Below are positions 14,360 through 54,799 of a stretch of DNA of 64,000 bases, piece after piece. Source of the DNA: Mycobacterium sp. BK086 (GTDB lineage Bacteria > Actinomycetota > Actinomycetes > Mycobacteriales > Mycobacteriaceae); assembly GCA_004362315.1 (NCBI GenBank), contig SNWL01000007.1:124001-188000 (forward strand), given 5' to 3'. The number at the start of each line of letters is the position of its first letter. Within the stretch, counting starts at the first letter, position 1. Made by a program: the position numbers and the translations under genes. The notes beneath the pieces are model-generated. The model did not search any database and was not told the origin of the DNA. It was given only the letters and a program-made list of their open reading frames with translations.

Positions 14360-14362
14360 TCC

Positions 14363-15275: not shown

Positions 15276-15347
15276 CGAAGCCAACCTACGCGTCCCTTGC
15301 CCGGATGTCTGTGGCTCGACACTTTCCACGCGGCACTCGGCGGATAG

Positions 15348-37232: not shown

Positions 37233-37390
37233 ACCGCTCCGTCCGAATCAATTGCATGCATAGTAGAACGTAACTATGTCACGCCGACGAGCAGGCGCGC
37301 CGTAATAGCCTCTGGAGCTGCTATTTACGGGGACTATTTACCTACGGATGGGCAGGTAGTACGTGAACAGGGGGTGTGGGTGTTGTTGCG

Positions 37391-38563
37391 TTAAGGCTCC
37401 AGCACCGCTGCCGGTCCGCGCTGCATCAGCTGGCGGCCGATGATGATGCGCTGAATCTCGCTGGCGCCCTCCCAGATTCGCTCGACGCGCAGCTCGCGGA
37501 ACATCCGCTCGGCGACGTTCTCGCGCATGTAGCCGCGCCCCCCGAAGACCTGGACGGCCCGATCGGCGACCCGGCCGGCCATCTCCGAGCAGTACAGCTT
37601 GGCCATCGACGCCTGCCCGTGCAGCGCCTTGCGATCCAGCCCGGCATCGATCCCGCGGGCCACTTCGTAGAGCAGGCTGCGTGCGGCGAACAGCTCGGTG
37701 GCGCTGTCGGCAAGCATGCCTGCCACCAGTTGATGCTCACCGAGTGGTTTGCCGTCGACGATGCGTTCGGATGCGAAGGCGGTCATCTCGTCGACCAGGC
37801 GCTGGGCGGCTCCCACGCAACGGGAGGCCACCATGATCCGCTCGAAGCGGAACCAGTCCTGGGTGAACTGCATGCCCTCGCCTTCGGCGCCGACCAGGTG
37901 GCTGGCCGGCACCCGCACGTCGGTGAACGACACGATCGGATGCTCGTCGGGAATGTTGTGCGAATAGTGCGGCGTTCGCACCACCTCCACCCCGGGCCAC
38001 GGCAGGTCCACCACCAACAGCACGTGGTCGCCTTCGTGCGGCCCGCCCACCAGCACTGCCTGGACGAAGACGTACTCGGCCAGGTTGAACGACGTGACGT
38101 GCCACTTGATCCCGTTGATGACGTACTCGTCGCCCTCGAGGCGCGCCGTGGTCTCCAGTGCCGATACGTCCGACCCGGCGAATTCCTCGGTGATGGCGTA
38201 GGCCTCGTGCTTCTCACCCCGCACCGCGGGCAGCAGCCAGCGCTGCTTCTGGTAGTCGGTGGCCACCTCGGCCCACCACTGCGGCGGGGTGTGCATCACC
38301 CAGGCGATCCCGTTGGTGCACCGGCCGACCTGTTCCTGCACCAGAACCTGTTGCAGCGCAGTGAATCCCGGACCGCCCACGGAGGCGGGCATGTTGGTCG
38401 CGTACAGGCCCAGCTCGATGGTCTTGGCGTGGTGTTCGGCGGTCAGCTCTTTGGGCAGCTGGCCGCCCGCCATTTCAGCCTCGGCTTCGTAGGGGATCAG
38501 GGTGTCGACGAACTCGCGCGCGGTCTCGCGGATCCGTAGGTCTTCGGCTGTCAACCCGTACAT
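37391..38563 (-). CDS. Acyl-CoA dehydrogenase
   Basis: 390 residues. FAD-binding motifs: YAITEEFAGSDVSALETTA, ING-I-W-H-V-T-SFN region, and QVFGGRGYMREN; the C-terminal EGASEIQRIIIGRQ carries the probable catalytic Glu (position typical of short-chain/isovaleryl-type enzymes). It removes two hydrogens from an acyl-CoA, passing electrons to ETF. It is divergent from the DAO-type oxidase across the palindromic operator at 38595, so part of the amine island regulon. Confidence 0.9.
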   Translation of the reverse strand: MYGLTAEDLRIRETAREFVDTLIPYEAEAEMAGGQLPKELTAEHHAKTIELGLYATNMPASVGGPGFTALQQVLVQEQVGRCTNGIAWVMHTPPQWWAEVATDYQKQRWLLPAVRGEKHEAYAITEEFAGSDVSALETTARLEGDEYVINGIKWHVTSFNLAEYVFVQAVLVGGPHEGDHVLLVVDLPWPGVEVVRTPHYSHNIPDEHPIVSFTDVRVPASHLVGAEGEGMQFTQDWFRFERIMVASRCVGAAQRLVDEMTAFASERIVDGKPLGEHQLVAGMLADSATELFAARSLLYEVARGIDAGLDRKALHGQASMAKLYCSEMAGRVADRAVQVFGGRGYMRENVAERMFRELRVERIWEGASEIQRIIIGRQLMQRGPAAVLEP

Positions 38564-38589
38564 TCGCGGTGCTCTCTGCTCGCTGGAAG

Positions 38590-38617
38590 CTATTGACTGA
38601 GCGTTCAGTCTATGCCA
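38590..38617. promoter_or_regulatory. TetR/BetI-type operator, copy 1
   Basis: Palindrome GACTGA-GCGT-TCAGTC at 38595-38610, inside a 28-bp block (38590-38617) identical to that at 47225-47252. It lies between the acyl-CoA dehydrogenase and the FAD oxidase genes, 32 bp and 20 bp from their starts. Probable binding site of the BetI-like regulator at 43976. Confidence 0.8.
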
Positions 38618-38629
38618 CGGTCTTGAGGT

Positions 38630-39826
38630 ATGACCAGCAGTCGCAATGCGGACGTCGTGGTCGTCGGAGGCGGAACAGTCGGGGCGTGGACGGCGGTCCA
38701 GCTAGCCGAACGCGGGGCCGGCCGCGTCGTGCTGCTCGAAGCCCAGACGCTGGGCGACGGCGCCAGTAGCCGTGCCGCGGGCATGGTCCGCGCGCAAGGT
38801 GGGACCGAGACCGCCATCCGCCTCGGCCTGCGCAGCCAGGAGTTCTACAGCGCCAGCGGGGACCGCTATCCGCTCGATTGCGGCTTCGTTGCGCAGGGCT
38901 ATCTGATGCCGTGTTTCACGGATTTCGAGGTGCAGCAGGCGCGCGAGCGAATCGCGCTGCAGCACAGCCTCGGCCTGTCGGTCGAATGGTTGTCGGGCTC
39001 CGATATCGACGGCCGCAATACAGGTTTGGCTCCGGGCGTGACGGCCGGCGGCTCGTACGCGCCGGGCGACGGGTACATCAATGCGCCGCGCAATGTGCTG
39101 GCCTACACCGCCGCGCTGACCGCGCACGGGGTCGATGTCCGAGAACGGTGTGCCTTCACGGGGCTGCGAGTGGCGCAGGGCAGGGTGATCGGTGTCGACA
39201 CCGCCGACGGTCCAATCGACACCAATCTGGTGGTGCTCACCGGTGGCCCGATGCTGGGTGAGGTCGGCGTGACGGCCGGTGGCCGGATCCCGGCAGGCGG
39301 TACCCGACACCAGGTCGTGGTCACCGAACCGCTGCGTGACGCGAACATCGACGAACTGCCGATGGTCTTCGATGTCAGTGAGGGAATCTATTGGCGGCCA
39401 GGCGAATACGGCGGCGTGCTGTGGGGGATGAGCAACCCTGACGAACAACCGGGCGAGGCAAGAGAGTTCGACTGGACCTACTACCAGAAGGCGCTGGCCC
39501 GTATCGAATCGCTGTTCCCGCCGGTGCGCGGGCTGGGGCTTCGGCGCACCTGGGCGGCGACGATCGACTACACGAACGATCATCTGCCGATCCTCGGTCC
39601 GCTGCTCACCGACGACGGTCCGGTCGATGGCACCGTGGTGGCCTGCGCGGCCGGGCACGGGATGATGTGGGGTCCCGCGGTGGCCGAGGCGGCCGCCGAC
39701 GTCACGCTCACCGGCCAATGTGACTGGCTCGACCTGACCGATCTCGGGCTGGACCGCTTCGACGCCGACGGAAACAGTCGGTTGGAGCCCGAGCCGATTT
39801 CTCTTCCGTTCCCCGAACACGCTTGA
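38630..39826 (+). CDS. DAO-family FAD oxidoreductase (sarcosine oxidase-like)
   Basis: 398 residues. Rossmann motif DVVVVGGGTVGAWTAVQLAE, followed by DAO-type GASSRAAGMVRAQGG. The C terminus has DYTNDHLPILGPL and ACAAGHGMMWGPAVAE, the usual DAO FAD-closing motif. Enzymes of this class oxidise secondary or tertiary amines, or amino acids (sarcosine, dimethylglycine, glycine). Substrate inferred as an amine from the island context. Followed 19 bp later by a DUF861 cupin; operator copy 1 just upstream. Confidence 0.88.
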   Translation: MTSSRNADVVVVGGGTVGAWTAVQLAERGAGRVVLLEAQTLGDGASSRAAGMVRAQGGTETAIRLGLRSQEFYSASGDRYPLDCGFVAQGYLMPCFTDFEVQQARERIALQHSLGLSVEWLSGSDIDGRNTGLAPGVTAGGSYAPGDGYINAPRNVLAYTAALTAHGVDVRERCAFTGLRVAQGRVIGVDTADGPIDTNLVVLTGGPMLGEVGVTAGGRIPAGGTRHQVVVTEPLRDANIDELPMVFDVSEGIYWRPGEYGGVLWGMSNPDEQPGEAREFDWTYYQKALARIESLFPPVRGLGLRRTWAATIDYTNDHLPILGPLLTDDGPVDGTVVACAAGHGMMWGPAVAEAAADVTLTGQCDWLDLTDLGLDRFDADGNSRLEPEPISLPFPEHA

Positions 39827-39845
39827 TGCGAAAGGTTTTGGTGCT

Positions 39846-40193
39846 ATGACCGCTGCAGTTCTGACCGCCGTCCTGGCCAATGCGGCCGATGCCGAACTCG
39901 AGGACTGGGGTCCGCTGGAGGAGGCCACCGGCGATCCGATGGCCACGCACGGGCTCGAGGTCTGGGTCGACGGCGACAAGTCGGGCGGCATCTGGCAATG
40001 TGCCCCAGGCCCGTCACGTTGGACGCTTGACACGAACGAAGTGATCTACGTGGTGTCCGGGCGGATGACCGTCACCCCCGATGGCGGTGAGCCCAGTGAG
40101 GTCGGTGCCGGCGACCTCGCAGTCTTCCCGCTGGGCTGGACCGGCACCTGGGTGATCCACGAGACCCTGCGCAAGGCCTACGCGATCTTCTAG
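39846..40193 (+). CDS. DUF861 cupin protein
   Basis: 115 residues. Single cupin with NEVIYVVSGRMTVTPDGGEP and AGDLAVFPLGWTGTWVIHE, the DUF861 (EutQ-like/ureidoglycine-hydrolase-like) pattern. These small cupins often sit beside DAO-type amine oxidases. Enzyme versus chaperone role is unknown. Its TAG stop shares the CTAG tetramer with the convergent ligase stop. Confidence 0.8.
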   Translation: MTAAVLTAVLANAADAELEDWGPLEEATGDPMATHGLEVWVDGDKSGGIWQCAPGPSRWTLDTNEVIYVVSGRMTVTPDGGEPSEVGAGDLAVFPLGWTGTWVIHETLRKAYAIF

Positions 40194-42241
40194 CGCGGGA
40201 TCACCAAGGCGTCGACGGCCACCACCCCATTGGGTGTCGCGATCACGGGGTTGGCCTCGACGGCGTCGAGGTGATCGCCGAGTTCGACTGCCAATTGCGA
40301 GAATCCGACGATGGTGTCGGCCAATGCGTCCATATTCACCGGCGGGGCGCCGCGCCAGCCGGCCAGTAGCGGCGCGGTGCGCAACGACCGCAGCAGTGCC
40401 ACGGCCGCCTCGTGAGTCACCGGCGCGCAGGCGACCGCGCGATCGGCCAGCAGCTCCACCAGCGTGCCGCCCGCGGCCACCACGATGAGCGGGCCGAAGT
40501 TGTCGTCACGCACCACGCCCAGCGAGATCTCCACACCCGCAGGGGCCATCGCGTCGACGCTGACATCAGGCCCCAATCGCGCGGCCAGCTCCTCATAGGC
40601 CACCCACAGCGACTCGCGGTCACTGATGCCGAGAACCACCCCGCCGACGTCGCTCTTGTGCTCGCTACCAAGAGTTTTGAGTGCGACGGGATAACCGACA
40701 TTCGCCGCGGCAGCGAGTGCCTCGGCGGCGTCGTGGGCGGTACGCGACTGGGTGACCGGGATGCCGTAGTCGGCGAGCAGCGCGAACGCGGTGGGGGAGT
40801 CCCAGCCGGGTTCGGCCAGCCGGGCCGTCCAGCGCTGTGCACGCTCGCTGTCGATCTCGGGGGCCGCCACCGAGACCGGTTGCGGCCAGCGCGCGAGGTG
40901 CCCCAGGGCCGCGATACCGCTGCGGGTGCCTTCGAGGACCGGAATACCGTTATCGCGCAGTCGCTTTGCCGTCGGCGGGTCGATGGCCGACGGTACCGAT
41001 GCCAGCACCGCCAGTGGGGCATCGCTGCCGGCCGCGATGTCCAGGACGGCGTCAGCGTAGGCGGTGTCGTCGTCGAATTCGGTGACCAGGTCGACGGCCA
41101 GTGCGGTCACCGCGACGCCGGGGTCGTCGACGATCGCGCGCAGACAGCCGCCGAACAGCTCGCGGGTGTCGGCACCGGTGCCCCAGACGTCGAGCGGGTT
41201 GGCAGGGGACAGGCCGTCGTCGAGCAGCTCGCCGATCGCGGCCAGCGTCGGGGCGGCCAATTCGGCGAAGTCCACGGCGAGGTCGTGGGCGATGTCGGCG
41301 CACAGCGCTCGTTCGGCCCCGGAGTCGTGCACCGTGGCGATCCCGTGTGATCCGGGCGTGCGGCGCCTACCCGCCTCGAAAAGTTCGATGGTATCCGCAA
41401 ATTCGGCCATGTCGGAGACCCGGACAGCGCCGGTCTCGGCACGGAATGCCTCCCAGCCCGCGGCATCGCCGGCCAGCGCGCCGGAGTGCGCGGCGACCAT
41501 CGCGCGTCCGCGGGGTGAGTGGCCGACCGGCAGGAGCACCACCGGGATGTCGCGCTGCGCGGCACGGCGCAGCCCGGCCCGCAGCCGGCCCACCGATCGC
41601 GGGGTCTCCAGCAGCAGCGCGATCAACGAGGTGCCCGGGTCGTCGACGATGTAGTCGACGTAGTCGGCAGTGTCGGTGACCAGTTCCTGGCCCGACGAGA
41701 CCGCCAGCCGGAATCCGAACCCCCGCCGCGCCCGCAGGATGGTCGAGAACGCCGACCCCGAATGTGTCACGAGGGAAACCCCGCCCGGCGGTAGCGGATC
41801 GGGTTCGAGGTAGCCGAGCGCGCGCAGTCCGGTGGCGTTGTTGACGAATCCCATGCAGCCCGCGCCGCACACCGCCATCCCGGCCTCGGTCGCGGTCTCC
41901 GCGACGGCCTGCCGCAACGCGGTACCGTGCGCAGAGCCGAAGATCACCGCGGACCGAGCACCCACTGCCGCAGCGGCTTTCAGCTCGTCGACCAATGCGG
42001 CATCGGGTACGCCGAGCAGCACCAGATCGACCGGCTGATCGAGCGCGGCGAGCGATGGTGCGCAGGCGAGCCCGTCGATGATGTCGTAGCGCGGGTTGAC
42101 CAGATGCATGCGCGCAGAGCTACGGCGCGCCTCGATGATCATCCGCTCGCCGAAGCTTCCCGGTTTTGGGCTGGCCCCGACGAGTGCCACCGAGCGGGCC
42201 CCCAGCATGGCGGCGACGGCCGCCCGGCGGCTGTCGGTCAT
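40190..42241 (-). CDS. NDP-forming acyl-CoA synthetase (acetate-CoA ligase family)
   Basis: 683 residues from the ATG at 42241. N-terminal CoA-binding domain (RSVALVGASPKPGSFG), succinyl-CoA-ligase-like middle with GAGCMGFVNN and a phospho-His candidate in HSGALAGD (VAAHSGAL), and a C-terminal ATP-grasp half (YPVALKTLGSEHKSDVGGV, LLAGWRGAPPVN). It interconverts acyl-CoA and acid with ADP/ATP. Coupled to the upstream PYROXD2-like gene by 4-nt overlap. Its role is probably to activate or release an acid made from the amine's carbon chain. Confidence 0.88.
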   Translation of the reverse strand: MTDSRRAAVAAMLGARSVALVGASPKPGSFGERMIIEARRSSARMHLVNPRYDIIDGLACAPSLAALDQPVDLVLLGVPDAALVDELKAAAAVGARSAVIFGSAHGTALRQAVAETATEAGMAVCGAGCMGFVNNATGLRALGYLEPDPLPPGGVSLVTHSGSAFSTILRARRGFGFRLAVSSGQELVTDTADYVDYIVDDPGTSLIALLLETPRSVGRLRAGLRRAAQRDIPVVLLPVGHSPRGRAMVAAHSGALAGDAAGWEAFRAETGAVRVSDMAEFADTIELFEAGRRRTPGSHGIATVHDSGAERALCADIAHDLAVDFAELAAPTLAAIGELLDDGLSPANPLDVWGTGADTRELFGGCLRAIVDDPGVAVTALAVDLVTEFDDDTAYADAVLDIAAGSDAPLAVLASVPSAIDPPTAKRLRDNGIPVLEGTRSGIAALGHLARWPQPVSVAAPEIDSERAQRWTARLAEPGWDSPTAFALLADYGIPVTQSRTAHDAAEALAAAANVGYPVALKTLGSEHKSDVGGVVLGISDRESLWVAYEELAARLGPDVSVDAMAPAGVEISLGVVRDDNFGPLIVVAAGGTLVELLADRAVACAPVTHEAAVALLRSLRTAPLLAGWRGAPPVNMDALADTIVGFSQLAVELGDHLDAVEANPVIATPNGVVAVDALVIPR

Positions 42242-43860
42242 CGCCTGCGGAAACGCTTCTTCTTGGTGTCTGCCAGCGCGGCTCGCGCTGCCTGCCAGCC
42301 GGGAATGCCGCAGACGCCGCCGCCGGCGTGGGTGCCTGAACTTCCGTTGTAGAGCCCCGCGATCGGCGTTCGGTAGTCGGCGTAGCCCGGTGCGGGCCGC
42401 ATGTGGAACAGCTGCTCCAGCGAGAGTTCGCCGTGGAAGATATTGCCGCCGATGAGGCCGTACTCCTGCTCCATCTCGTGTGGCCCGACGATGTCGCGAT
42501 GCAGGATGGAGGATTTGAATCCTGGAGCGACCTGGTCGTAGAGGTCGATCAGACGGTCGGCGTAGGCGTCCAGTTCTTCGGTGTGCGGGGCGTCGGCCCA
42601 AGCCGCGGGCACCCACTGGGTGAACAGCGACATGATGTGCGTGCCATCGGGATTCAGGGTCTTGTCCAGGGTGGTGGGGATGACGCCGTCACTGAACGGC
42701 ATCAGCGCGGGCCTACCGACCCGGGCGTCCTGGAACGCGGCCTCGATGTACTCCATCGTCGGCGCCATCTCGACCGAACCGGTGTGATGCTCGGCCTGCC
42801 CGTCGCTGGGATCGGCGGTGAAATTCGGCAGCTCGCCCAGGGCGAGGTTGATCTTGACGACACCGCTGCGGGTCTTGAAGTGCTCGATGTCGGAAACGAA
42901 CTCCGCAGGCAGTTCGCCCCGCGGAATATGGTCCAGGAAGGCGATTTTCGGGTGCAGTGTGGTGACGACCAGCGGGGCACGCAGCTCGTCGCCGTTCTCC
43001 AGGACCACGCCTTCGACGCGCCCGCCCCGCACCAGCATCCTCGACACCCGGGCTTTGGTCCGTATCTCGGCACCGAAGCTGCGCGCCGAGCGCGCGATGG
43101 CTTCCGAGACCGCGCCCATGCCGCCCTCGGGGTAGCCCCAGCTGCCGAGCTGGCCGTCGCCGACGTCGCCGATGGAGTGATGGGCCATCACGTAGGCGGT
43201 GCCCGGCTCGTAGGGTCCGGCCCAGGTGCCGATGACGCCGTTGACGGCGAGTGCCCCTTTGATTTGCGGTGATTCGAACCAGTCGTCGAGCAGGTCGGCG
43301 ATGCTCATGGTGAGCAGCCGGGTGACGTCACCCATCATCCGGGTGGTCATGCCCCGCTGGCTCCAGCCCAGCTTCGCGAGCTCGAAGAGATCGGCGGGCT
43401 TGTGCGATCCGATGTTCGGCGGCACCTGGGTCAGCAGCGGACCCATGACATCGGCGATGCCCTCCAGCCAGGCGTTCCACTTGGGCCAGGTGTCGGCGTC
43501 CTTCTTCGAGAACTTGGCCAGCTGTTCATGGGTGCGGGCCGGGTCGTCCTCGTAGATGGTCAGCGAGCCGCCCTCGGGAAATGCCTGGTAGTAGGGGCCC
43601 ATCGGGTGAACCTTGTAGCCGTGACGCTCGAGGCTGAGATCCCGCACGATCGTCGGCGGCATCAGACTCATCACGTACGACAGCCGCGTGACCCGAAGAT
43701 GCGGTGCGTCCTCCCATGGCGCTTCTGTGGTGGCCGCCCCGCCCAGCGCACCCCGTGACTCCAGGACGACGGTTTTGGCGCCCGAGCGTGCGAGATAGGC
43801 GGCCGAGACCAGTCCGTTGTGTCCGCCGCCGATGACGATGGCGTCGTAGGTGTTCGACAT
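42238..43860 (-). CDS. PYROXD2/phytoene-desaturase-like FAD oxidoreductase
   Basis: 540 residues. N-terminal FAD motif YDAIVIGGGHNGLVSAAYLA and a nearby GGAATTEAPW. The C terminus has GLYNGSSGTHAGGGVCGIPG, the CrtI-type end. Related proteins oxidise amines or desaturate carotenoids; here amine context favours the former, but this is inference. The island regulator diverges from it, with operator copy 3 between them. Start and the ligase gene are translationally coupled. Confidence 0.85.
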   Translation of the reverse strand: MSNTYDAIVIGGGHNGLVSAAYLARSGAKTVVLESRGALGGAATTEAPWEDAPHLRVTRLSYVMSLMPPTIVRDLSLERHGYKVHPMGPYYQAFPEGGSLTIYEDDPARTHEQLAKFSKKDADTWPKWNAWLEGIADVMGPLLTQVPPNIGSHKPADLFELAKLGWSQRGMTTRMMGDVTRLLTMSIADLLDDWFESPQIKGALAVNGVIGTWAGPYEPGTAYVMAHHSIGDVGDGQLGSWGYPEGGMGAVSEAIARSARSFGAEIRTKARVSRMLVRGGRVEGVVLENGDELRAPLVVTTLHPKIAFLDHIPRGELPAEFVSDIEHFKTRSGVVKINLALGELPNFTADPSDGQAEHHTGSVEMAPTMEYIEAAFQDARVGRPALMPFSDGVIPTTLDKTLNPDGTHIMSLFTQWVPAAWADAPHTEELDAYADRLIDLYDQVAPGFKSSILHRDIVGPHEMEQEYGLIGGNIFHGELSLEQLFHMRPAPGYADYRTPIAGLYNGSSGTHAGGGVCGIPGWQAARAALADTKKKRFRRR

Positions 43861-43896
43861 GGCGCTCCACTTTCGTCAGCCCGAACGGGCATCTTT

Positions 43897-43912
43897 GACT
43901 GACTGTTCAATC
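43897..43912. promoter_or_regulatory. TetR/BetI-type operator, copy 3 (variant)
   Basis: GACTGACTGTTCAATC matches GACTGAGCGTTCAGTC at 13 of 16 positions and shares the flanking TT and TA. It lies between the PYROXD2-like gene (37 bp) and the TetR gene (64 bp), so it fits autoregulation with weaker affinity. Confidence 0.65.
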
Positions 43913-43975
43913 TAACCAAGTGTTAGGCTTTCAACAAGTGCCAGCGCAGGCACGGCTGAAGGGGAGTACGACACG

Positions 43976-44629
43976 ATGGCAGATCCGGCACCGGCGACCG
44001 AGAACAACGAGGCGCGGCGCATCCAGATGTTGCGCGCCGCAGCTGAGCTCATTTGCGAGCGCGGCTTTTCCGAGACGCGGATCTCCGATGTCGCCAAGCG
44101 GGCCGGCGTCAGCTCGGCGTTGGTGATCTATTACTTCGGTACCCGCGATCGGTTGCTCGTGGACGCCCTGCGCTACTCCGAGGAATCGTTCTACGAGGCG
44201 GCCGAACAGATGCTGGCCGAAGTGCCGTCCTTGCGCGACCGGCTCTCGCTGCTGATCCAATGGACCTGCGTTCCTGAGGGGACCAACGAGATCCCCGGCG
44301 CCTGGGGTCTGTGGTTTGACCTGTGGGCGCAGGCCTTCCGGCACGACGAGGTCAAGGCGGGCCGAGTGGAGCTCGACGCGCGCTGGCGGCGGATGATCGT
44401 CGACGCGGTGGAATCGGCCGAGCTGGAATCCGACGTGGACGCGCGGATCTTCGCCCTGGAGTTCTCCGCTCTGCTCGACGGTCTGTCGATTCAGGTCGCC
44501 CTGGAGGATCCGGAGGTCGACTCGAAGGTGGCCTACGACATCGCGATGCGCTTCGCCGAGCGGGAACTGGATCTGCCGCGGGAGAAGCGCCGTCCGGTGT
44601 CGGCCGGCCGGGGCAGGCGCTCCCGCTAA
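43976..44629 (+). CDS. BetI-like TetR regulator of the amine island
   Basis: 217 residues; AAGGGGAG precedes the ATG. The N-terminal HTH (about 15-60) has LRAAAELICERGFSETRIS, then VAKRAGVSSALVIYYFGTRD, close to the BetI type. The C domain (LFDL-type WGLWFDLWAQAFRHDEVK) resembles TetR_C_6/BetI ligand domains. E. coli BetI sites also contain a GAACGTTCAAT-like core, comparable to the palindromes found three times here. The inducer is probably the imported amine or its oxidation product. Convergent with the PotA-like gene, overlapping 4 nt. Confidence 0.85.
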   Translation: MADPAPATENNEARRIQMLRAAAELICERGFSETRISDVAKRAGVSSALVIYYFGTRDRLLVDALRYSEESFYEAAEQMLAEVPSLRDRLSLLIQWTCVPEGTNEIPGAWGLWFDLWAQAFRHDEVKAGRVELDARWRRMIVDAVESAELESDVDARIFALEFSALLDGLSIQVALEDPEVDSKVAYDIAMRFAERELDLPREKRRPVSAGRGRRSR

Positions 44630-45768
44630 GCCGGGTTGGCGACGAGTTCCACCGCAGGATCGGTGACGACGGTAGCGGCGCTTCGCGCAAGCACCCGCAC
44701 CGCGTCCTGCGTGCACACACACGTCACCGCCATCCCGGCGGCGTAGGCCACCGAGCCGGGCCCGGACTGATTGGGGACGTCGACGACGAGCGCGGTGGGC
44801 TCGCCGACGTTGACGTGAACCTGAGTCGAGGCCCCGTGATAGACCACCTGCGCCACGGTGCCGTTGATCGCGTTGTGCCCCGGGGAGACCGGGTCGTCGG
44901 GGGACTGAATCGTGATGCGTTCGGGGCGGATGACGATGGCGGCGGGGCCGGGCTGGCATGAGGTGTCCACCGCGGCGCCCAGCCGGGTCGCGAGTGCTGA
45001 ACACAACGCCGATCCGTCGTCATTCTGCAGCACGTCGGCGTCGAAAATATTTGCCGCACCGAGGAATCCGGCCACATAGGTGGTCGCCGGAGCGGAGTAG
45101 ATCTCCTGTGGCGGACCGACCTGCTCGACGCGCCCTTCGGCCAGCACCGCGATCTGGTCGCTCATCGTCAGCGCCTCGTCCTGGTCGTGGGTCACGTAGA
45201 CGAACGTGATCTCGACTTCGCGCTGCACCGCTCGTAACTCCAGCTGAAGTTGCCTGCGCAGCTTGGCATCCAGTGCGCCGAGCGGCTCGTCGAGCAGCAA
45301 CACCCGCGGCTGCAAGACCAGTGCTCGGGCCAGTGCCACCCGCTGCTGCTGACCGCCGGACAGCTGGGTGGGCTTGCGCTTGGCGTACCCGCTCATCCGG
45401 ACCAGATCCAGTGCTTCGCCCACGCGGCGCTTGGTCTCGTCCTTGGACGTCTTCTGGTACTTCAAACCGAAGGCGACGTTGTCCCAGACCGTCATGAACG
45501 GGAACAGTGCGTAAGTCTGGAACACGGTGTTGACCGGACGCTTGTGCGGCGGATCCTGCGCGACGTCACGGCCGTCGAGTTCGATGCGCCCCGAATCCGG
45601 CTTCTCGAATCCGGCGATCATCCGCAGCGTGGTGGTCTTACCACACCCGGAGGCGCCCAGAAGCGAATAGAACTGTCCCGCCGGAATATCCAGATCGATA
45701 CCCGTCACGGCGGGAACTCCGTCGAACGCCTTCGCCAGCTGGTGCAGGCGGATCGCGCCGCCGGTCAC
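44626..45768 (-). CDS. Polyamine-type ABC transporter ATPase (PotA-like)
   Basis: 380 residues from GTG 45768. Walker A LLGASGCGKTTTLRMIAGFE, Q-loop FQTYALFPFMTV, signature LSGGQQQRVALARAL, Walker B LLLDEPLGALDAK, His-switch THDQDEAL. A C-terminal TOBE domain (about 285-370) follows, as in spermidine/putrescine importers. It is expressed after the aminotransferase gene (25-bp gap) and should energise the permeases at 48546 and 49448 encoded on the other strand. Confidence 0.92.
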   Translation of the reverse strand: MTGGAIRLHQLAKAFDGVPAVTGIDLDIPAGQFYSLLGASGCGKTTTLRMIAGFEKPDSGRIELDGRDVAQDPPHKRPVNTVFQTYALFPFMTVWDNVAFGLKYQKTSKDETKRRVGEALDLVRMSGYAKRKPTQLSGGQQQRVALARALVLQPRVLLLDEPLGALDAKLRRQLQLELRAVQREVEITFVYVTHDQDEALTMSDQIAVLAEGRVEQVGPPQEIYSAPATTYVAGFLGAANIFDADVLQNDDGSALCSALATRLGAAVDTSCQPGPAAIVIRPERITIQSPDDPVSPGHNAINGTVAQVVYHGASTQVHVNVGEPTALVVDVPNQSGPGSVAYAAGMAVTCVCTQDAVRVLARSAATVVTDPAVELVANPA

Positions 45769-45793
45769 CGGCGGCCCTCCGCACAGCAGGCGG

Positions 45794-47170
45794 TCAGGCC
45801 GCCACCGCCGAAGCGAGCCGGGCGAAGTTCGCGGCGAAGCGGTCTACGTCGGCCTCGTCGTGCTGAACAGATAGCAGCCATTGCTCCACCTTGCCCCAAG
45901 GCGGCAGGAAGACACCGCCGTTGTGCTGCATGAGCCAGTGCAGATGGCCCAACCGGTCGTCGATCTGGAGAAAGTCGCGGAAATCGTGGACCGGCTCGCG
46001 TTTGAACGTCACACAACCCTTGGCCCCGACACTCACCACGTGCCAACCGTAACCGTGTTCGGTCACCGTCGCTTCCAAAGCGCCGCGAAGTCGCTGAGCC
46101 AGGGCCTCCATGCGCGTGTAGGCGGCCGGCGTGAGAACCTCGGCCAGGGTGGCTCTGGTGGCCGCCATCGCCAACGGGTTCCCATTGAAGGTGCCGACCT
46201 GTTCGTAACTGCCGTCGGCGATCGCCGACATGACGGCGGTACTGCCGCCGATCGCCGCGACCGAGATACCGCCACCCAAAGCCTTTGCCAGACAGACGAT
46301 GTCGGGAGTCACGCCCGACATCGCGGTGATGCCGCCGGGCCCGGTGGTGAAGCCGGTCTTGACCTCGTCGTAGATCAGCAGGGCGCCCTCGGCGTGCACC
46401 AGGTCGCGGATCGTGGCCAGGTAGCCGTCGTCGGGCGGAATGATGCCGGCGTTCATCATGACCGGCTCGACGATCATCGCCGCCACCTGTCCGCGGTGCT
46501 CGGCCAGCGCCCGGGCGACCGCCTCGGGATCGTTGAACGGCACCACCACAACCAGATCTCGGATCGCCTGAGGAATACCGCTGTTGCCGGGCACGCCGAT
46601 CGGATGATCGCGCGGGCCGACCTGATCGGCCTCCGGCAGCACCGAGACCTCCACCGAGTCGTGATGGCCGTGGTAGCAGCCCTCGACCTTGATGATGAGG
46701 TCCCGCCCGGTCACCGAGCGGGCCAGGTGCACGGCGTCCATCGTGGCCTCGGTCCCGGAATTGGCGAAGCGCCACAACGGCAGATCGAACCGGCGGGCCA
46801 ACTCTCCGGAGATCCAGATCGCGTCCTCGGTCGGCTGGGCGAAATGGGTACCGCGGCGGACCTGCCTGCTGACGGCGTCGACGATCGCGGGATGGGCGTG
46901 CCCGGCGATGGATGCGCCGTAGCCGCCGTGCATGTCGACGTACTCGGTGCCGTCGACGTCGTAGACCTTGGAACCCGCACCGTGGCTCATCCAGACCGCC
47001 TGCGGTTGGGCGATCTGCCAGTTCGACGTCGCCCCGCCCGCGAGGTGTTCGCGTGCGCGACTGATCATTTCGGTGCTGCGCGGCTGGCGCGCCAGGAACA
47101 CCTTCTCCTCATCGGCGATCAATTGGTCGACCGCGTCGTGAACCGGGCTCTCGATAATCGGCGAAGCCAC
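45794..47170 (-). CDS. Class III PLP aminotransferase (GSA-like)
   Basis: 458 residues; GTG 47170 with GGAAGG upstream is preferred to an ATG at 47224, which lies at the operator. Motifs: YVDMHGGYGASIAGHAHP, ANSGTEATMDAVHLARSVTG, LIYDEVKTGF, and the PLP Lys in CLAKALGGGISVAA. Related to glutamate-1-semialdehyde aminotransferase but outside a haem locus. In this island it likely moves the amino group of an imported amine or its aldehyde product. Operator copy 2 is 60 bp upstream. Confidence 0.9.
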   Translation of the reverse strand: MASPIIESPVHDAVDQLIADEEKVFLARQPRSTEMISRAREHLAGGATSNWQIAQPQAVWMSHGAGSKVYDVDGTEYVDMHGGYGASIAGHAHPAIVDAVSRQVRRGTHFAQPTEDAIWISGELARRFDLPLWRFANSGTEATMDAVHLARSVTGRDLIIKVEGCYHGHHDSVEVSVLPEADQVGPRDHPIGVPGNSGIPQAIRDLVVVVPFNDPEAVARALAEHRGQVAAMIVEPVMMNAGIIPPDDGYLATIRDLVHAEGALLIYDEVKTGFTTGPGGITAMSGVTPDIVCLAKALGGGISVAAIGGSTAVMSAIADGSYEQVGTFNGNPLAMAATRATLAEVLTPAAYTRMEALAQRLRGALEATVTEHGYGWHVVSVGAKGCVTFKREPVHDFRDFLQIDDRLGHLHWLMQHNGGVFLPPWGKVEQWLLSVQHDEADVDRFAANFARLASAVAA

Positions 47171-47224
47171 GGGGAAACCTTCCACTCGATTGCTGTGCGG
47201 ACCTGCGAAGAAGCGCCGCGACAT

Positions 47225-47252
47225 CTATTGACTGAGCGTTCAGTCTATGCCA
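47225..47252. promoter_or_regulatory. TetR/BetI-type operator, copy 2
   Basis: Palindrome GACTGAGCGTTCAGTC at 47230-47245; the whole 28-bp block is identical to copy 1 at 38590-38617. It sits between the aminotransferase and the binding-protein gene, so it can control both the importer and the aminotransferase-PotA operon. Confidence 0.82.
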
Positions 47253-47304
47253 GAGTCCAAGGTGCAGACAAGACTCGAGAAGACTCGAAACCACGGAGGC
47301 GCGG

Positions 47305-48546
47305 ATGCCAGCACCGACAGGACCCGGCCCGAATCGTCGACAGTTCTTGCAGCGGGCCGCCCTATTGGCGGCTGGAACCCCCGCGCTCGTGGCATTCCTC
47401 GATGCGTGTTCCAAAGGCGGACAGTCGAGTTCGGCACCGACACTCAAAATCGCATCCCCACAGAATCCGGTGAAGTGGGATATCCCGAGCGACAACAAGC
47501 CGATCGCCGACGGGCTGGCCCCGGAAAAGGGTGCCACGCTCCAGCTGTACAGCTATGCCGACTACATCGCGCCTGATGCGATCAAGTCGTTCGAGGACAA
47601 GTATTCGACCAAGGTGCAGGTGTCGACGTTCAACGACACCGATGAAGCCATCACCAAGATTCGCGGCGGCAACGTCGACTACGACATCTACTTCCCCAGC
47701 TACGACCAGATCAGCCGACTGGTCAATGGTGGCCTGGTACGTCCGCTCAACCACAGCTACATCGGCAACATCACCAATGTCTGGCCGGTCTTCTCGAACC
47801 CCTGGTACGACCAGGAGTGGCGGTTCACGGTGCCCTACACCGTGTACACCACCGGCCTCGGCTGGCGCACCGACCAGGTGCCCGCCGATATCGGCGCACT
47901 CAAGAATCCCTATGAGGCGCTGTGGGATCCGGCCTACAAGAACAAGACCGCGGTCATCGACGACTGGCACACCGCGATGGCGATGGTCCTGCTGAAGCTG
48001 GGCATCACCGATGTCAACACCTCGTCGGCCGACGACCTGAAGAAGCTCGGCGATCAGCTGACCGAGCTCGTGAAGGCGACGTCGCCGAAGGTCACTGTCA
48101 CGATGTACAGCGACCTGCCCGCCGGCCAGATCGGCTTGTCACAGATGTGGTCCGGCGACGTCATCAACGCCGTCAACTACCTGCCGGAGGGCACCGGACC
48201 GGAGATCCTGCGCTACTGGTTCCCGTCCGACGGCAAGGGACTGGTCGACAACGATCTGATCGTCCTGCTGCGCGGCGGCAAGAATCCGGTGCTGGGGCAC
48301 CTGTTCCTCAACCACATGCTCGAAACCGAGGTGGCCAAGCAGAATTTCCAGCAGATCGGTTACCAGCCGCCGCAGGTCTCGCTCAATCCGGATGCCCTGG
48401 TTTCCGACGGGCTGGTCCCGGAGAACCTGAAGAGCGCGATCGTGCGGCCGGAGTACTTCGACGTCGGATACCGTCTGCTCGAGCTCGACGCCACCAATGA
48501 CGCTGCCTGGCACAATGTCTGGCGCGCCTTCAAAGCCGGGGGATAG
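47305..48546 (+). CDS. Polyamine/amine-binding lipoprotein of an ABC importer (PotD/PotF-like)
   Basis: 413 residues. The N terminus combines a Tat-like motif (NRRQFLQRAALL) with a lipobox ending FLDAC, so the mature protein is a membrane lipoprotein. The type II binding fold has LQLYSYADYIAPDAIKSFED, DYDIYFPSYDQI and WSGDVINAVNYLPEG, as in spermidine/putrescine-binding proteins. The ligand cannot be told exactly. Overlaps the permease gene by one base. Confidence 0.9.
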   Translation: MPAPTGPGPNRRQFLQRAALLAAGTPALVAFLDACSKGGQSSSAPTLKIASPQNPVKWDIPSDNKPIADGLAPEKGATLQLYSYADYIAPDAIKSFEDKYSTKVQVSTFNDTDEAITKIRGGNVDYDIYFPSYDQISRLVNGGLVRPLNHSYIGNITNVWPVFSNPWYDQEWRFTVPYTVYTTGLGWRTDQVPADIGALKNPYEALWDPAYKNKTAVIDDWHTAMAMVLLKLGITDVNTSSADDLKKLGDQLTELVKATSPKVTVTMYSDLPAGQIGLSQMWSGDVINAVNYLPEGTGPEILRYWFPSDGKGLVDNDLIVLLRGGKNPVLGHLFLNHMLETEVAKQNFQQIGYQPPQVSLNPDALVSDGLVPENLKSAIVRPEYFDVGYRLLELDATNDAAWHNVWRAFKAGG

Positions 48547-49451
48547 TGCTTCAGAAAAAGCCGACACGCAACAGTGGGCTGTGGCCGCTGCTGGCCATGC
48601 CCGGTGTCGTGTGGTTGGCGGTGTTCTTCCTCGCCCCGCTCTATGTGGTGCTGGCCATCGTGTTCGGCCAGATCGATCCGATCTTCCGCACCCCGATCCC
48701 GGTGTGGAACCCGTTGGAGTGGAACCCTTCTCAGTTCACCTATGTCCTTACCCACATCGTGGGCGACAACGGCGTGTTCGGGCCCGCCCTGCTGCGCACC
48801 GCGGTCTACGTCGTCCTGGCCAGTGTGCTGTGCCTGCTGATCGCGTTCCCGGTGGCCTACTACACGGCGCGGCTGTCGGGACGCTGGGCCGGCGTGCTGC
48901 TCGCCGCGTTGATCGCACCGTTCTGGATCAGCTACATGATGCGAATGCTGGCCTGGGTCAACCTGCTTCAGGACGACGGCATGGTCAATCGGCTGTTCAG
49001 TCTCGGCGGACTGTTCGACGTCAACGTGCACTGGTTGACCGGCCAGCCTGTGGTGGTGGTGCTCGGGCTGGTGTACGGCTATGTGCCGTACATGATCCTG
49101 CCGCTCTACGCGGGCCTCGACCGGCTGCCGCAGTCGACGCTGGAGGCCGCTCGCGATTTGGGGGCCAACCGGATCGAGTCGTTCTGGCGGGTGACGTTGC
49201 CGATGTGCCGGCCCACGATCGTGGCCGGTGTCCTGCTGACCTGCCTGCCGATGCTCGGTGACTACTTCACCTCCGACATGCTGTCGGCCTCGCCGAAGAC
49301 GGCGATGGTGGGCAACCTCATCAACGACAGCGTGCAGTCGCCAGGGCAGACCGGGCAGGCGGGCGCGTTCGTGATGCTGGTGTTGATCGTGACCGTGGTG
49401 CCGATGTTCTACTACGTGCGGGTGACCGCGCGCGGCGAGGTGTCGACATGA
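48546..49451 (+). CDS. ABC permease 1 (PotB-like)
   Basis: 301 residues from GTG 48546. About six transmembrane helices and the EAA loop (LEAARDLGANRIESFWRVTL). Standard binding-protein-dependent permease of the polyamine type. Coupled on both sides: one-base overlap with the binding-protein gene and ATGA overlap with permease 2. Confidence 0.92.
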   Translation: MLQKKPTRNSGLWPLLAMPGVVWLAVFFLAPLYVVLAIVFGQIDPIFRTPIPVWNPLEWNPSQFTYVLTHIVGDNGVFGPALLRTAVYVVLASVLCLLIAFPVAYYTARLSGRWAGVLLAALIAPFWISYMMRMLAWVNLLQDDGMVNRLFSLGGLFDVNVHWLTGQPVVVVLGLVYGYVPYMILPLYAGLDRLPQSTLEAARDLGANRIESFWRVTLPMCRPTIVAGVLLTCLPMLGDYFTSDMLSASPKTAMVGNLINDSVQSPGQTGQAGAFVMLVLIVTVVPMFYYVRVTARGEVST

Positions 49452-50326
49452 GGGGGCCGGTCGCCTGGTGGAAGGACCCGTGGCGGCCGCCGCGGATTCT
49501 GCAGGCGGTCACCGCCGGTTACCTGATCTGGTCGCTGCTGCCGGTGCTGATCGCGGTGATCTTCTCGTTCAACGACGGCAGGTCGCGGACCAATTGGCAG
49601 GGTTTCTCGTTCCGCTGGTACTGGGGCGATGCGACCAAATCGGTGTGGCACGACGCCTCGCTGCACACCGCGCTCCTGCAGACCCTCAAGCTCGGCGTGA
49701 TCACCACTCTGATCACGGTGCCGTTGGGCGTGCTGTTCGCGATCGGAATCGACCGCTGGCGGGGGCGGCTGCCCGCCGGCGCCAACCTGTTGATGCTGGT
49801 GTCGTTCGTGGTTCCCGAGGTGCTGCTGGCCGTCGCACTGCTGTTCGTGATGACATCGTTAGCGCTGCCGATCGGGCTGGGCACCTCCGCACAGGTGATC
49901 GGCCTGGTGACGTTTCAGATCGCCTATCCGGCGGTCCTCGTGCGGGCCCGACTCGCCACGATCGGCAACCAATATGAAGAGGCCGCAATGGATTTGGGGG
50001 CGTCGCCGATGGAGGCGCTGCGACGGGTGACGGTGCCGATGTTGTTCCCGGCGATCTTCGCCAGCACGGTGCTGGTGTTCGCCGACGTCATCGACGACTT
50101 CGTGTTGGTGCGCTACCTGTCCGGCAACGCCTCCACCGAGCCGGTATCGGTGAAGATCTACAACACCGCCCGTGCGGCGCCGACCCCGGCGCTCAACGCG
50201 CTGGCCACCCTGCTGCTGTTGGCCGCGCTGGTCGCGGTGACCGTCGGATATCTGGTGTACCGCCGCATGACTCGCGGCGACGACCGTACGCGCGGTGGGA
50301 TTGCCGCGTTCGCAGGCGAGGCATAG
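49448..50326 (+). CDS. ABC permease 2 (PotC-like)
   Basis: 292 residues. About six transmembrane helices and the EAA loop (EEAAMDLGASPMEALRRVTV). Completes the importer with permease 1, the lipoprotein and the ATPase at 44626. The Rieske gene starts 9 bp after the stop, suggesting one transcript for uptake and oxidation. Confidence 0.92.
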   Translation: MRGPVAWWKDPWRPPRILQAVTAGYLIWSLLPVLIAVIFSFNDGRSRTNWQGFSFRWYWGDATKSVWHDASLHTALLQTLKLGVITTLITVPLGVLFAIGIDRWRGRLPAGANLLMLVSFVVPEVLLAVALLFVMTSLALPIGLGTSAQVIGLVTFQIAYPAVLVRARLATIGNQYEEAAMDLGASPMEALRRVTVPMLFPAIFASTVLVFADVIDDFVLVRYLSGNASTEPVSVKIYNTARAAPTPALNALATLLLLAALVAVTVGYLVYRRMTRGDDRTRGGIAAFAGEA

Positions 50327-50335
50327 GCTGACTGT

Positions 50336-51484
50336 ATGTTCAAACAGACTCCGGCGCCGGTGCCTGCCGACGATCTCGCCCTGTCCCTCGCGCCGTTCGG
50401 GCAGTCCCGGATGCTGCCGCGGGAGGCCTACGTCAACGCCGAGGTATTCGAATGGGAGAAGCACAACATCTTCTCCGGCTGGCACTGCGTGGGTCACGCG
50501 AGCGACCTCGACGGTGTCGGCGCCCAGAAGGCCGTGGGCTCGGGTGCTGACGGCATCCTGCTGGTGCGCGGCGAGGACGACACAGTGCGTGCCTTCGCCA
50601 ACGTGTGCCGTCATCGCGGACACGAGATGCTGGCGTGCGGCGCCACCGCCAAACGGCGCGGCATCGTATGTCCGTACCACTCCTGGTCCTACAAGCTCAA
50701 CGGTGAATTGCGCAGGGCGCCAACCTTCGACGCTGCCGAAGGGTTCGATGCCGGGCAGTTCGGTCTGGCCGAGCTGCGGCTGGTGGACTGGCACGGGTAC
50801 CTGTTCGTCGACCCCAGCGGTAGCGATGTCGATTTCGACTCCCACGTCGCCGGCATGGAAGACGTCATCGGTCCCTATCGGCCGGAAGACCTGACCGTGG
50901 TGGCTCGGCACTCCTACGAGCTGGCAACCAACTGGAAGGTGATCGTCGAGAACTACCAGGAGTGCTACCACTGTTCGACGATCCATCCCGAGCTCTCCAA
51001 GATCAGCCCGCCCACCAGCGGCGAGAATCTCGACTTGCCCGGCGACTGGATCGGCGGCTGGATGGGCATGATCGACGAGGCCGAGACCATGTCGCTCAGT
51101 GGGCGCAGCGGTGGCGTCGCGATCAAGGGCCTGTCCGAGCAGGAACTTCGCACCGTGATGTACCTGGTCGGATTCCCCAACTTGCTGGTGAGCCTGCACC
51201 CCGACTACGTCATGACGCACCTGATGACGCCGTTGGCGGTGGACCGCACGCACGTCGAATGCGCTTGGGCGTTCCCGAAAGAGGCGTTGGACAAGCCCGA
51301 TTTCGACCCGTCGTACGCGGTGGATTTCTGGGATCTGACCAACCGGCAGGACTGGACGGCGTGTGAGTCGGTGCAGCGCGGGCTGAGTTCCCCGCATGCC
51401 CGCCCCGGACCGCTGGCTCCCGACGAGGACGGTGTCTACCAGTTCGTGACCCGGGTTGCCCGGGCCTACAGCGGGTCTCGCTGA
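50336..51484 (+). CDS. Rieske non-haem iron oxygenase, alpha subunit
   Basis: 382 residues. Rieske cluster ligands C91/H93 (CRHRGHE) and C112/H115 (CPYHSW). The mononuclear iron site is in NYQECYHCSTIHPEL (His-x4-His type), with the third ligand near the C-terminal FWDLTNRQDW. It resembles choline/carnitine monooxygenases and glycine-betaine demethylases, which cleave C-N bonds of quaternary amines. It needs a reductase; none is adjacent. Being in the importer operon, it probably acts on the imported compound. Followed by a terminator-like hairpin. Confidence 0.88.
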   Translation: MFKQTPAPVPADDLALSLAPFGQSRMLPREAYVNAEVFEWEKHNIFSGWHCVGHASDLDGVGAQKAVGSGADGILLVRGEDDTVRAFANVCRHRGHEMLACGATAKRRGIVCPYHSWSYKLNGELRRAPTFDAAEGFDAGQFGLAELRLVDWHGYLFVDPSGSDVDFDSHVAGMEDVIGPYRPEDLTVVARHSYELATNWKVIVENYQECYHCSTIHPELSKISPPTSGENLDLPGDWIGGWMGMIDEAETMSLSGRSGGVAIKGLSEQELRTVMYLVGFPNLLVSLHPDYVMTHLMTPLAVDRTHVECAWAFPKEALDKPDFDPSYAVDFWDLTNRQDWTACESVQRGLSSPHARPGPLAPDEDGVYQFVTRVARAYSGSR

Positions 51485-51510
51485 ACAGCCGAAGAGCTGG
51501 TAGCGTCCGG

Positions 51511-51534
51511 GTCGGGCGCGCAGGACCGCCCGAC
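51511..51534 (+). terminator. Terminator-like hairpin
   Basis: Stem GTCGGGCG / CGCCCGAC (8 bp) with an 8-nt loop, 27 bp after the Rieske stop. No T-run. Likely ends the importer-Rieske transcript. Confidence 0.6.
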
Positions 51535-51639
51535 GTCCGCTCGAAGAGGCTCAGCCTCCCTGCTCTTCACGACTGACACCTGACCGACCTCCTTCTCGGC
51601 CCGGCCTCGCGGACGCAGGGCATGTGAGAGGAGGCCGCC

Positions 51640-52863
51640 ATGGCCAGCGCCCTGCCCGATAATCCGTCACTCGACCGGCTGCGCACTGATGCGCGCACTC
51701 TGCAGCGCGGCGTTCTGGCGAACGATCCCGAAGCGCTCGACGCGATCCGCCGTCATCACCCCCGCCCCGACCTTGCGCTGCAGCGCTTTCGGCTGCACGA
51801 CGCGCAACTCGCGATCGCCCGTCGCTATGGGTTCAGTGGCTGGCCGGCACTCGTCGAGTACCTGTCGATCGCCGATCAACTCTCGGTGGATCCGGGCCGA
51901 GTCGACGAGGATGCGTTGGTGCCGGCCGACCACTTCTGCGCGCTGTCGTCGCTGCGCTATGACGAGACCGACGCCCCGCCGCGCTGGCAGGCGGCCGCCG
52001 ATCTGTTGCAGGCGAATCCTGCTGTGCCGCAACATCATGTGTGGGCGGCCGCCTCGGCTGCGGATCCAGTGGCGCTGGCCCGTCACCTCAAGGCCCGGCC
52101 CGGGCTGGCGACCACTGCGGGTGGCCCGTTCGGGTGGGTTCCGCTGATGTATCTGTGCTATTCACGGGTTCCGTTGCTGCGCAACGAAGATGACGTCGTG
52201 ACGGCAGCGGTCGCATTGCTCGACGCCGGCGCCGATCCCAACTCCGGTTATCTGTGGCGGGGCATGTCGACTCCGTTCACCGCGCTCACCGGGGTGTTCG
52301 GCGAAGGCGAACAGGGCCCCGGCCGTCAACCGCGGCACCCGTTCGCGCCGGCGTTGGCCCGGCTCTTACTGCAGCGCGGCGCGCATCCCGTCGACCAGCA
52401 GACGCTCTACAACCGGATGTTCCGCGCCGACGATTCGCATCTGCACCTGCTCTTCGAACACGGCCTCGCCGACGCGGGCCCCAGCCCGTGGGAGCAGCGC
52501 CTGGGCGAGGCGATGGAAACCCGCGAGCAGATGTGGCGACGCCAGATCGACTGGGCTGCCGAACACGGATTCGGCGACCGGCTGGCCCTGCTCGCCCGCC
52601 ATGGCATCGACGTCTCGAACGCCGAACTGGTCGAGCAAGCGTTACCCAGAGATCCGAACGCGCGCGACCACGAGGGGGCCACGCCCCTGCACCACGCGGC
52701 GTGGAGCGGCGACCTGGACCTGATCCGCCGGCTCCTGGACGCCGGCGCCGACCCCCGCGTCGTCGACCTCCGCTATGGCACGACACCGCTGGGCTGGGCA
52801 CAGCACGCGTACCAGACCGAGGCCGCCGCCTATCTGGACGGCTGGCAGACTCGCACGCTGTGA
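51640..52863 (+). CDS. Ankyrin-repeat protein
   Basis: 407 residues; GAGAGGAGG lies upstream. Two regions of ankyrin-like helices: VALLDAGADPNSG near 195-210, and the C-terminal DHEGATPLHHAAWSGDLDLI with RRLLDAGADPRVVD. No signal peptide, so a cytosolic binding protein; partner unknown. The stop overlaps the patatin GTG by 4 nt (GTGA), a translationally coupled pair. Confidence 0.8.
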   Translation: MASALPDNPSLDRLRTDARTLQRGVLANDPEALDAIRRHHPRPDLALQRFRLHDAQLAIARRYGFSGWPALVEYLSIADQLSVDPGRVDEDALVPADHFCALSSLRYDETDAPPRWQAAADLLQANPAVPQHHVWAAASAADPVALARHLKARPGLATTAGGPFGWVPLMYLCYSRVPLLRNEDDVVTAAVALLDAGADPNSGYLWRGMSTPFTALTGVFGEGEQGPGRQPRHPFAPALARLLLQRGAHPVDQQTLYNRMFRADDSHLHLLFEHGLADAGPSPWEQRLGEAMETREQMWRRQIDWAAEHGFGDRLALLARHGIDVSNAELVEQALPRDPNARDHEGATPLHHAAWSGDLDLIRRLLDAGADPRVVDLRYGTTPLGWAQHAYQTEAAAYLDGWQTRTL

Positions 52864-54711: not shown

Positions 54712-54741
54712 TGCTCCATTCTGCTCACTGCGTCCCAACGG

Positions 54742-54771
54742 GGAAGGGCACCCCTTGCGGGATGCCCTTCC
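54742..54771 (-). terminator. Hairpin terminator after small secreted gene
   Basis: A perfect 9-bp stem GGAAGGGCA / TGCCCTTCC with a 12-nt loop, 28 bp beyond the stop of the 54800-54985 gene. No T-run. Confidence 0.65.
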
Positions 54772-54799
54772 GTCGTCGGTGCGCGTCGTCGCGCTCCGG

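Follow-up and report, generated by a model that had tools for sequence, protein, structure and literature searches.

Twelve genes at positions 37391-51484 of a 64,000-nucleotide stretch of Mycobacterium sp. BK086 DNA (contig SNWL01000007.1; the whole stretch is referred to as the window) probably form a self-contained, TetR-controlled catabolic regulon for a quaternary or N-methylated ammonium compound. Profile searches showed that this island apparently encodes the import and breakdown of an N-methylated amine. Its genes are arranged divergently: an acyl-CoA dehydrogenase gene (ACAD) opposes those of a DAO-type FAD oxidoreductase (DAO) and a cupin; an NDP-forming acyl-CoA ligase (ACS) and a CrtO-like flavoprotein (PYROX) oppose a TetR regulator; and an ABC ATPase (PotA) with a class III aminotransferase (AT3) opposes a binding protein, two permeases and a Rieske oxygenase (PotD-PotB-PotC-Rieske). 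The gap of each divergent pair carries an operator-like palindrome.

A previous interpretation made from the letters of the window (the sequence-only reading) had claimed GACTGA-N4-TCAGTC palindromes in three divergent promoters, two of them identical over 28 bp and one a 13/16 variant, and direct reading of the DNA confirmed all of this. Site 1 (38595-38610, ACAD/DAO gap) and site 3 (47230-47245, AT3/PotD gap), also recovered in motif scans, are the perfect palindrome GACTGAGCGTTCAGTC; they lie within 38590-38617 and 47225-47252, which both read CTATTGACTGAGCGTTCAGTCTATGCCA (28/28 identical). Site 2 (43897-43912, PYROX/TetR gap), GACTGACTGTTCAATC, is a one-mismatch palindrome that matches sites 1 and 3 at 13/16 positions, with 1 mismatch among the 12 arm bases, and is predicted to be a probable autoregulatory operator. 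When the whole genome (6,929,846 bases) was scanned with TTGACTGANNNTTCAGTC, places with at most one mismatch were found only at these three sites; the palindrome is not common in its own genome, which the sequence-only reading had named as one danger to its claim. Allowing two mismatches returned seven rows (the three sites, two of them re-read on the other strand, and two further places with two mismatches), and a control pattern gave no genome matches at this level. At up to three mismatches the window held 15 matches against 24.7 expected; since there is no excess, the signal rests on the near-exact sites and weak matches carry no meaning. Among 180 arms permuted from GACTGA, GACTGA itself gave two matches in the window, GATCGA one and all others none, and spacers of 0-8 bases yielded matches only at a spacer of 4. 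As in a local regulon, the palindrome thus occurs in the promoter of the TetR gene and in those of its putative targets, not elsewhere in the genome.

All three sites are real, but a weaker fourth, at 50330-50345, had been overlooked. This degenerate operator-like element, GACTGTATGTTCAAAC, includes the ATG of the Rieske gene. In 49/51 distinct start regions its best match has two or three mismatches (two in 4, three in 45), with four mismatches in one region and five in another; for two of the 45 (L038 and L104; L and G numbers denote our loci and genomes) the listed window is an equal-scoring neighbour and CTGACTGTATGTTCAAAC is still present. These counts were anchored on the gene start; the permutation analysis aligned its site-4 columns on GACTG, which makes them partly circular. 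L143, L145 and L094 retain the non-coding half, TGACTG, although their Rieske proteins share only 58-65% identity. For the coding half, protein constraint may also contribute to the conservation.

The island and its sites recur in many environmental mycobacteria and in some more distant relatives. Of 48 stretches from genomes of the genus (L038-L085), 29 were tabulated and 25 contain all twelve genes; in L056, L059 and L068 genes are missing at the fetched or contig end, and in L060 the Rieske gene is missing there and the cupin gene is also missing. Since L038-L069 were largely chosen by the palindrome, their permutation-control count is circular. A second set comprised 47 loci whose TetR proteins are 74-98% identical (mostly titled mycobacteria, a few only actinobacteria), and 22 of them hold all twelve genes within the flanks; the TetR search behind it used an alignment (A1) with one wrong-strand row (L089), which was left out of alignment A4; the peptide patterns derived from A1 agree with the mycobacterial rows. 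Among the named carriers are M. sphagni, M. rhodesiae, M. chubuense and M. iranicum; the cluster was seen only partly within the flanks in M. litorale and M. agri.

Intergenic regions were counted as distinct sequences of 16-600 bases with both gene starts found, and others were dropped. The exact palindrome was present in 40/40 ACAD/DAO gaps (site 1) and in 59/60 AT3/PotD gaps (site 3), the remaining one having one mismatch, and the best site 2 had one mismatch in 59/59 PYROX/TetR gaps, including those of L094 and L143. Overall, the site class was retained in 158/159 distinct intergenics. The left flanks of the sites mostly carry less than 1 bit, and the right side is conserved, starting CTATG at sites 1 and 3 or CTAA at site 2. 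Because the site class is kept while the left flanks vary, the sites appear to be maintained by selection.

The sequence-only reading had proposed a scan of related genomes, and we analyzed 198 genomes of the genus with ortholog thresholds of 1e-30 for TetR and 1e-100 for the Rieske protein. The palindrome (at most one mismatch) was found in 52 genomes, the TetR ortholog in 39 and the Rieske ortholog in 35. All 35 Rieske-bearing genomes match the palindrome; so do 17/163 Rieske-less ones, some of them away from any cluster. Of these 17, G136 retains the TetR gene with site 2, G008 and G070 have clusters on broken contigs, seven show no cluster (G034, G037, G065, G107, G122, G184 and G196), and seven were seen only at the matching place (G030, G063, G148, G149, G169, G188 and G190). 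TetR ortholog and exact palindrome occur together in 34 genomes, TetR alone in five, the palindrome alone in four and neither in 155 (Fisher p = 1.8e-28). This co-occurrence and the rarity of the palindrome in the BK086 genome support the earlier suggestion of one shared regulator in the form of one local regulon. The five genomes with TetR alone are G004 (TetR in two pieces), G054 (decayed cluster), G136, G166 and G127; in G127 the palindrome arms are exact and the wider pattern has one mismatch, and the other four have no Rieske or AT3 ortholog and no exact palindrome. Site 2 is nonetheless retained in G136 and G054, and G004 has a two-mismatch version. The four with the palindrome alone are G111, where it lies within the cluster on a short contig, and G107, G122 and G196.

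Outside the genus, 14 loci were chosen by TetR alone, with the palindrome unused: L094, L095 and L096 came from the search of the order, L143, L145, L146 and L147 from that of the named set, and L173-L179 from that of the class; 14 further weak TetR matches (L148-L161, 28-44% identity) stand outside the palindrome count. The palindrome was found at no more than one mismatch in 13 of the 14 loci, exact in 10 and with one mismatch in L095, L146 and L147. When the permutation control was run on these 13 (without L096), GACTGA gave 18 matches and any other of the 180 arms at most 2. At PYROX/TetR the palindrome is perfect in L175, L177, L178 and L179, against one mismatch in L094 and in L143, which has the mycobacterial form. 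PotB/PotC relatives at least 49% identical are encoded in eight loci (L094, L143, L145, L147, L175, L177, L178 and L179), and the presence of DAO, cupin, PYROX, ACS and ACAD varies among the 14. L177 and L179 show a rearranged PotA and PotBCD, with the palindrome still at ACAD/DAO and PYROX/TetR.

The likeliest regulator of the sites, judged by comparison, would be the neighbouring TetR protein (43976-44629, forward strand; PF00440, PF13977). It had been called BetI-like; the BetI-type C-terminal domain is indeed present, but the protein scores under the NCBIfam BetI cut-offs (TIGR03384, 90.7 of 201.3; PRK00767, 83.3 of 118). We infer that a TetR dimer would bind the GACTGA-N4-TCAGTC operators over the three divergent promoters and hold importer and enzymes off until released by the imported compound or an early product. 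Perfect sites 1 and 3 would give tight shut-off of ACAD/DAO-cupin and of aminotransferase-PotA/PotD-B-C, the weaker site 2 would serve TetR autoregulation and control of PYROX-ligase, and the still weaker site 4, over the Rieske start codon, could add local control. The order of site quality (1 = 3 > 2 > 4) thus suggests tight control of importer and catabolism with looser autoregulation. Sites 1 and 3 start with TTGACT and are followed at 17 bases by the consensus CA.cGT or.AgAGT; a bound dimer could therefore overlie a -35 region on one side and a possible -10 element, TAGACT, on the other. Against such coverage, the second hexamer is not kept at site 3 of L143.

The proposed catabolic steps would follow from the gene families. 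A PotABCD-type transporter would import the quaternary or N-methylated ammonium compound and a group Va-type Rieske enzyme would open it; the amine parts may then be handled by DAO, PYROX and the class III aminotransferase, and the carbon acid may pass through the CoA ligase and the acyl-CoA dehydrogenase. On the reverse strand are ACAD (37391-38563; PF00441, 1.2e-44), the ligase (40190-42241; PF13549, PF13607, PF13380), PYROX (42238-43860; NF045689 at 9.9e-73, 245.5 bits vs a cut-off of 1000), PotA (44626-45768; TIGR01187; NF006987, 390 vs 482) and the glutamate-semialdehyde-aminomutase-like AT3 (45794-47170; PF00202, 8.4e-63), whose start is uncertain because of an in-frame ATG upstream at 47224. 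Forward-strand genes encode the sarcosine/glycine-oxidase-like DAO (38630-39826; PF01266, 2.3e-59; best solved relative 1y56_B, named sarcosine oxidase), a EutQ-like cupin (Cupin_3; 39846-40193; PF05899, 1.2e-23), PotD (47305-48546; PF01547, 5e-10), PotB (48546-49451; PF00528, 4e-12), PotC (49448-50326; PF00528, 3.1e-12) and the Rieske oxygenase (50336-51484; PF00848, PF00355), which carries the group Va-like ENYQECYHC. The names given earlier hold at family level, except that no search here backed the PYROXD2 label and a CrtO-like match was obtained instead.

The substrate class, a quaternary or N-methylated ammonium compound, is suggested mainly by the Rieske protein. In sequence it is closest to Stc2 and CntA, and Foldseek ranked Stc2, TM1040_3219 and CntA first for its model (predicted local distance difference test, pLDDT, 68); by these top matches rather than a tree, it is nearer CntA/Stc2 than the ring-hydroxylating oxygenases. 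According to excerpts of the literature, group V enzymes act on quaternary-ammonium substrates (PMC7948474, PMC10952381), some members have a Cys-X-X-Cys pair at the mononuclear iron site (PMC10952381), and group Va has an aromatic residue at the position of CntA Y203 where group Vb has Asn (PMC7948474). The island protein contains C210-Y-H-C213, and its Y207 aligns with the CntA tyrosine, where Stc2 has Asn (CntA/Stc2 alignments); Y207 and both cysteines are invariant in 15/15 aligned relatives. The group Va tyrosine and the cysteine pair therefore favour a quaternary ammonium substrate.

The surroundings of distant loci are partly consistent with this class. L146 encodes a GcvT protein and one in which DAO is fused to GcvT, but has no relative of PotABCD or AT3. 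Aminomethyltransferase-family proteins adjoin related PYROX genes in L180 and L181, and in L180 the stretch between TetR and AT3 contains the palindrome-like TTGATTGACAACTCAGTC; no palindrome was found at one mismatch in L181, L184 or L185. L185, from a Shinella sumterensis plasmid, combines genes of carnitine type with those for an ABC transporter, a cupin, an NDP-forming ligase, a PYROX-like protein and GcvT. Carnitine 3-dehydrogenase is the best match of two of its proteins (449 and 468 of 592 bits) and crotonobetainyl-CoA hydratase that of one (274 of 500 bits); a 3-keto-5-aminohexanoate-cleavage-type protein is also encoded, and all these matches are below cut-off. A tblastn search of plasmids with the Rieske protein and the aminotransferase gave only matches below 60% identity.

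A narrower form of this proposal, which we consider rather unlikely, is that the compound is a trimethylammonium acid of the gamma-butyrobetaine, carnitine or trimethyllysine type, converted by ligase and ACAD to an enoyl-CoA betaine from which the Rieske enzyme would release trimethylamine as CntA does. The CntA-like tyrosine agrees with it, as does L185, where carnitine-type enzymes occur together with relatives of PotA, the ligase and PYROX. However, the BK086 genome has no good carnitine 3-dehydrogenase, there is no hydratase among the twelve genes, and L185 has no Rieske match at 1e-4.

The importer raises another alternative: a true local TetR regulon devoted to a polyamine or another primary or secondary amine, with the Rieske enzyme acting on a different kind of molecule. 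PotA exceeds the polyamine ATPase subfamily cut-off (TIGR01187, 383.7 of 355.6 bits), the PotD model (pLDDT 71) folds like the polyamine receptors PotD/PotF in Foldseek, and a class III aminotransferase and DAO fit the use of such an amine. PotD, however, scores far under the polyamine-receptor equivalog cut-offs (86.0 of 636 and 83.4 of 582 bits), and against its PDB relative 4gl0 the Glu and W-x-D, which we take to be amine-binding residues, align with Thr and V-D-N. Together with the group Va tyrosine of the Rieske protein, this makes the polyamine alternative unlikely. The amine catabolism put forward by the sequence-only reading is thus supported and, we infer, narrowed to quaternary or N-methylated ammonium compounds, a polyamine not being favoured for the importer.

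It is more improbable still that the palindrome, real and conserved as it is, is bound by another regulator, the neighbouring TetR being a bystander or one of several. The same kind of palindrome does occur away from the cluster in G107, G122 and G196, but TetR and palindrome were found together in 13/14 of the TetR-chosen loci outside the genus, and in G136, which has lost Rieske and AT3, TetR and site 2 persist. That the sites are chance or recently copied functionless repeats, as the 28-bp identity of sites 1 and 3 would allow, is scarcely credible given that both are kept in many species and other families while their left flanks diverge, and given the permutation control.

Several observations weigh against the TetR-controlled regulon for a quaternary or N-methylated ammonium compound. 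A consensus scan of 37300-52000 found no sigma-70-type promoter. The exact palindrome in G107, G122 and G196 comes without the cluster, and hence the sequence is not private to this TetR (in G107 a short TetR-like match follows it); four Rieske-bearing genomes (G009, G043, G053 and G156) each have one extra one-mismatch match outside the cluster. In G166, whose TetR is 75% identical, there is no site within two mismatches and no Rieske or AT3 ortholog. Outside the genus, L096 (TetR 35% identical) has no palindrome within two mismatches, L146 has a one-mismatch site only between ligase and ACAD and none beside TetR, and six of the 14 loci have no close PotB/PotC (in L173 and L176 the contig is short, unlike in L095, L096, L146 and L174). 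The PotA, ligase and PYROX relatives of L185 are only 33-43% identical, Rieske, AT3, ACAD and TetR have no match there at 1e-4, and the carnitine-type families all score under their cut-offs. Profile searches, confined to the island within the BK086 genome, recognised no Rieske reductase among the twelve genes. None was recognised either in 30 extra open reading frames from L048, L059, L094, L143, L145, L146, L147, L174, L175, L177 and L179, a set chosen greedily by length, with L173, L176 and L178 left out, several frames without a family and some perhaps on the wrong strand. A plain carnitine route in the BK086 genome was tried and rejected, the only two matches to NF005716 (carnitine 3-dehydrogenase) being weak, at 80.9 and 76.8 bits vs a cut-off of 592.

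Local TetR regulons, PotABCD importers and group V Rieske enzymes are already known kinds, and the island both resembles and departs from the closest systems. The bet genes convert choline to glycine betaine. The island shares with the BetI/bet system a TetR protein with the BetI-type C-terminal domain and palindromic boxes in promoters of a quaternary-amine pathway, but its TetR is under the BetI cut-offs, its twelve genes include no betA or betB, and its GACTGA operator differs from the BetI1 box, ATTGACG*CGTCAAT in an excerpt of PMC12442346. The Rieske protein has, as in CntA, Tyr at the Y203 position, Glu at 205 and Cys-X-X-Cys, but is only 25-27% identical to CntA in fold alignments and has other neighbours and no reductase among the twelve genes. 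Gene set and binding-protein fold are those of the PotABCD polyamine transporters, unlike the PotD scores, which lie far from those of polyamine receptors. Plasmid loci of the Alphaproteobacteria Fuscovulum ytuae and Shinella zoogloeoides are of the type TetR-AT3-PYROX-aminomethyltransferase-Rieske-PotABCD, with annotated TetR, aminotransferase, Rieske and ABC genes; PYROX is 43% and PotA 49-51% identical, whereas identity is only 24-36% for TetR, AT3 and Rieske, there are in addition an aminomethyltransferase and a second FAD enzyme, and neither ligase nor ACAD has a match at 1e-4.

Among the matches listed in the open-access literature, no paper covers the island's gene combination and operator; print elsewhere is possible. 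As a tentative proposal, the island may represent a novel aerobic pathway for quaternary or N-methylated ammonium compounds, built from a group Va Rieske enzyme, a CrtO/PYROXD2-like flavoprotein and a PotABCD-type importer, with a reduced form common to Actinomycetes and Alphaproteobacteria and, in Actinomycetes, one TetR operator code of graded sites, one of them over a start codon. If true, this would mean that environmental mycobacteria have a defined quaternary-amine diet, extend the group Va Rieske enzymes by a branch and provide a metabolic setting for the CrtO/PYROXD2-like flavoprotein family, which is poorly understood. Because the operator is conserved, a single protein and four short DNA fragments would be enough to test the regulon.

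Further observations were made around the island and its relatives. An ankyrin-repeat protein gene (51640-52863) lies immediately 3' of the Rieske gene and is kept in some relatives (L047, L048, L049 and L055). Two convergent patatin-like phospholipase genes (PF01734; 52860-53711, forward, and 53692-54888, reverse) adjoin the island, and relatives of the second remain at this position in L057 and L080, both of which have lost the island. L057 (positions 8001-8722; genome G136) holds a solo TetR gene with an intact site 2 in a genome without a Rieske or aminotransferase ortholog, that is, an orphan regulator. In L059 (2999-9890), as in other larger clusters, an insert of about 6 kb between cupin and ligase encodes sugar-type proteins (a BPD_transp_2 permease, two ROK proteins and a xylose-isomerase-like protein) and has no further palindrome. 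L178 contains two PotD-like stretches (8181-9215, in two overlapping pieces, and 14009-15289), and an OYE-type open reading frame in L179 gave generic matches only. GACTGA-N4-TCAGTC palindromes occur without the cluster in L170, L171 and L073, followed in L171 by a short TetR-like match. Near position 5001 of L074, L075, L076 and L077, TTGACTGAGGGTTCCGTC and TTGACTGAGCATTCCGTC, each in two genomes, recur away from the cluster.

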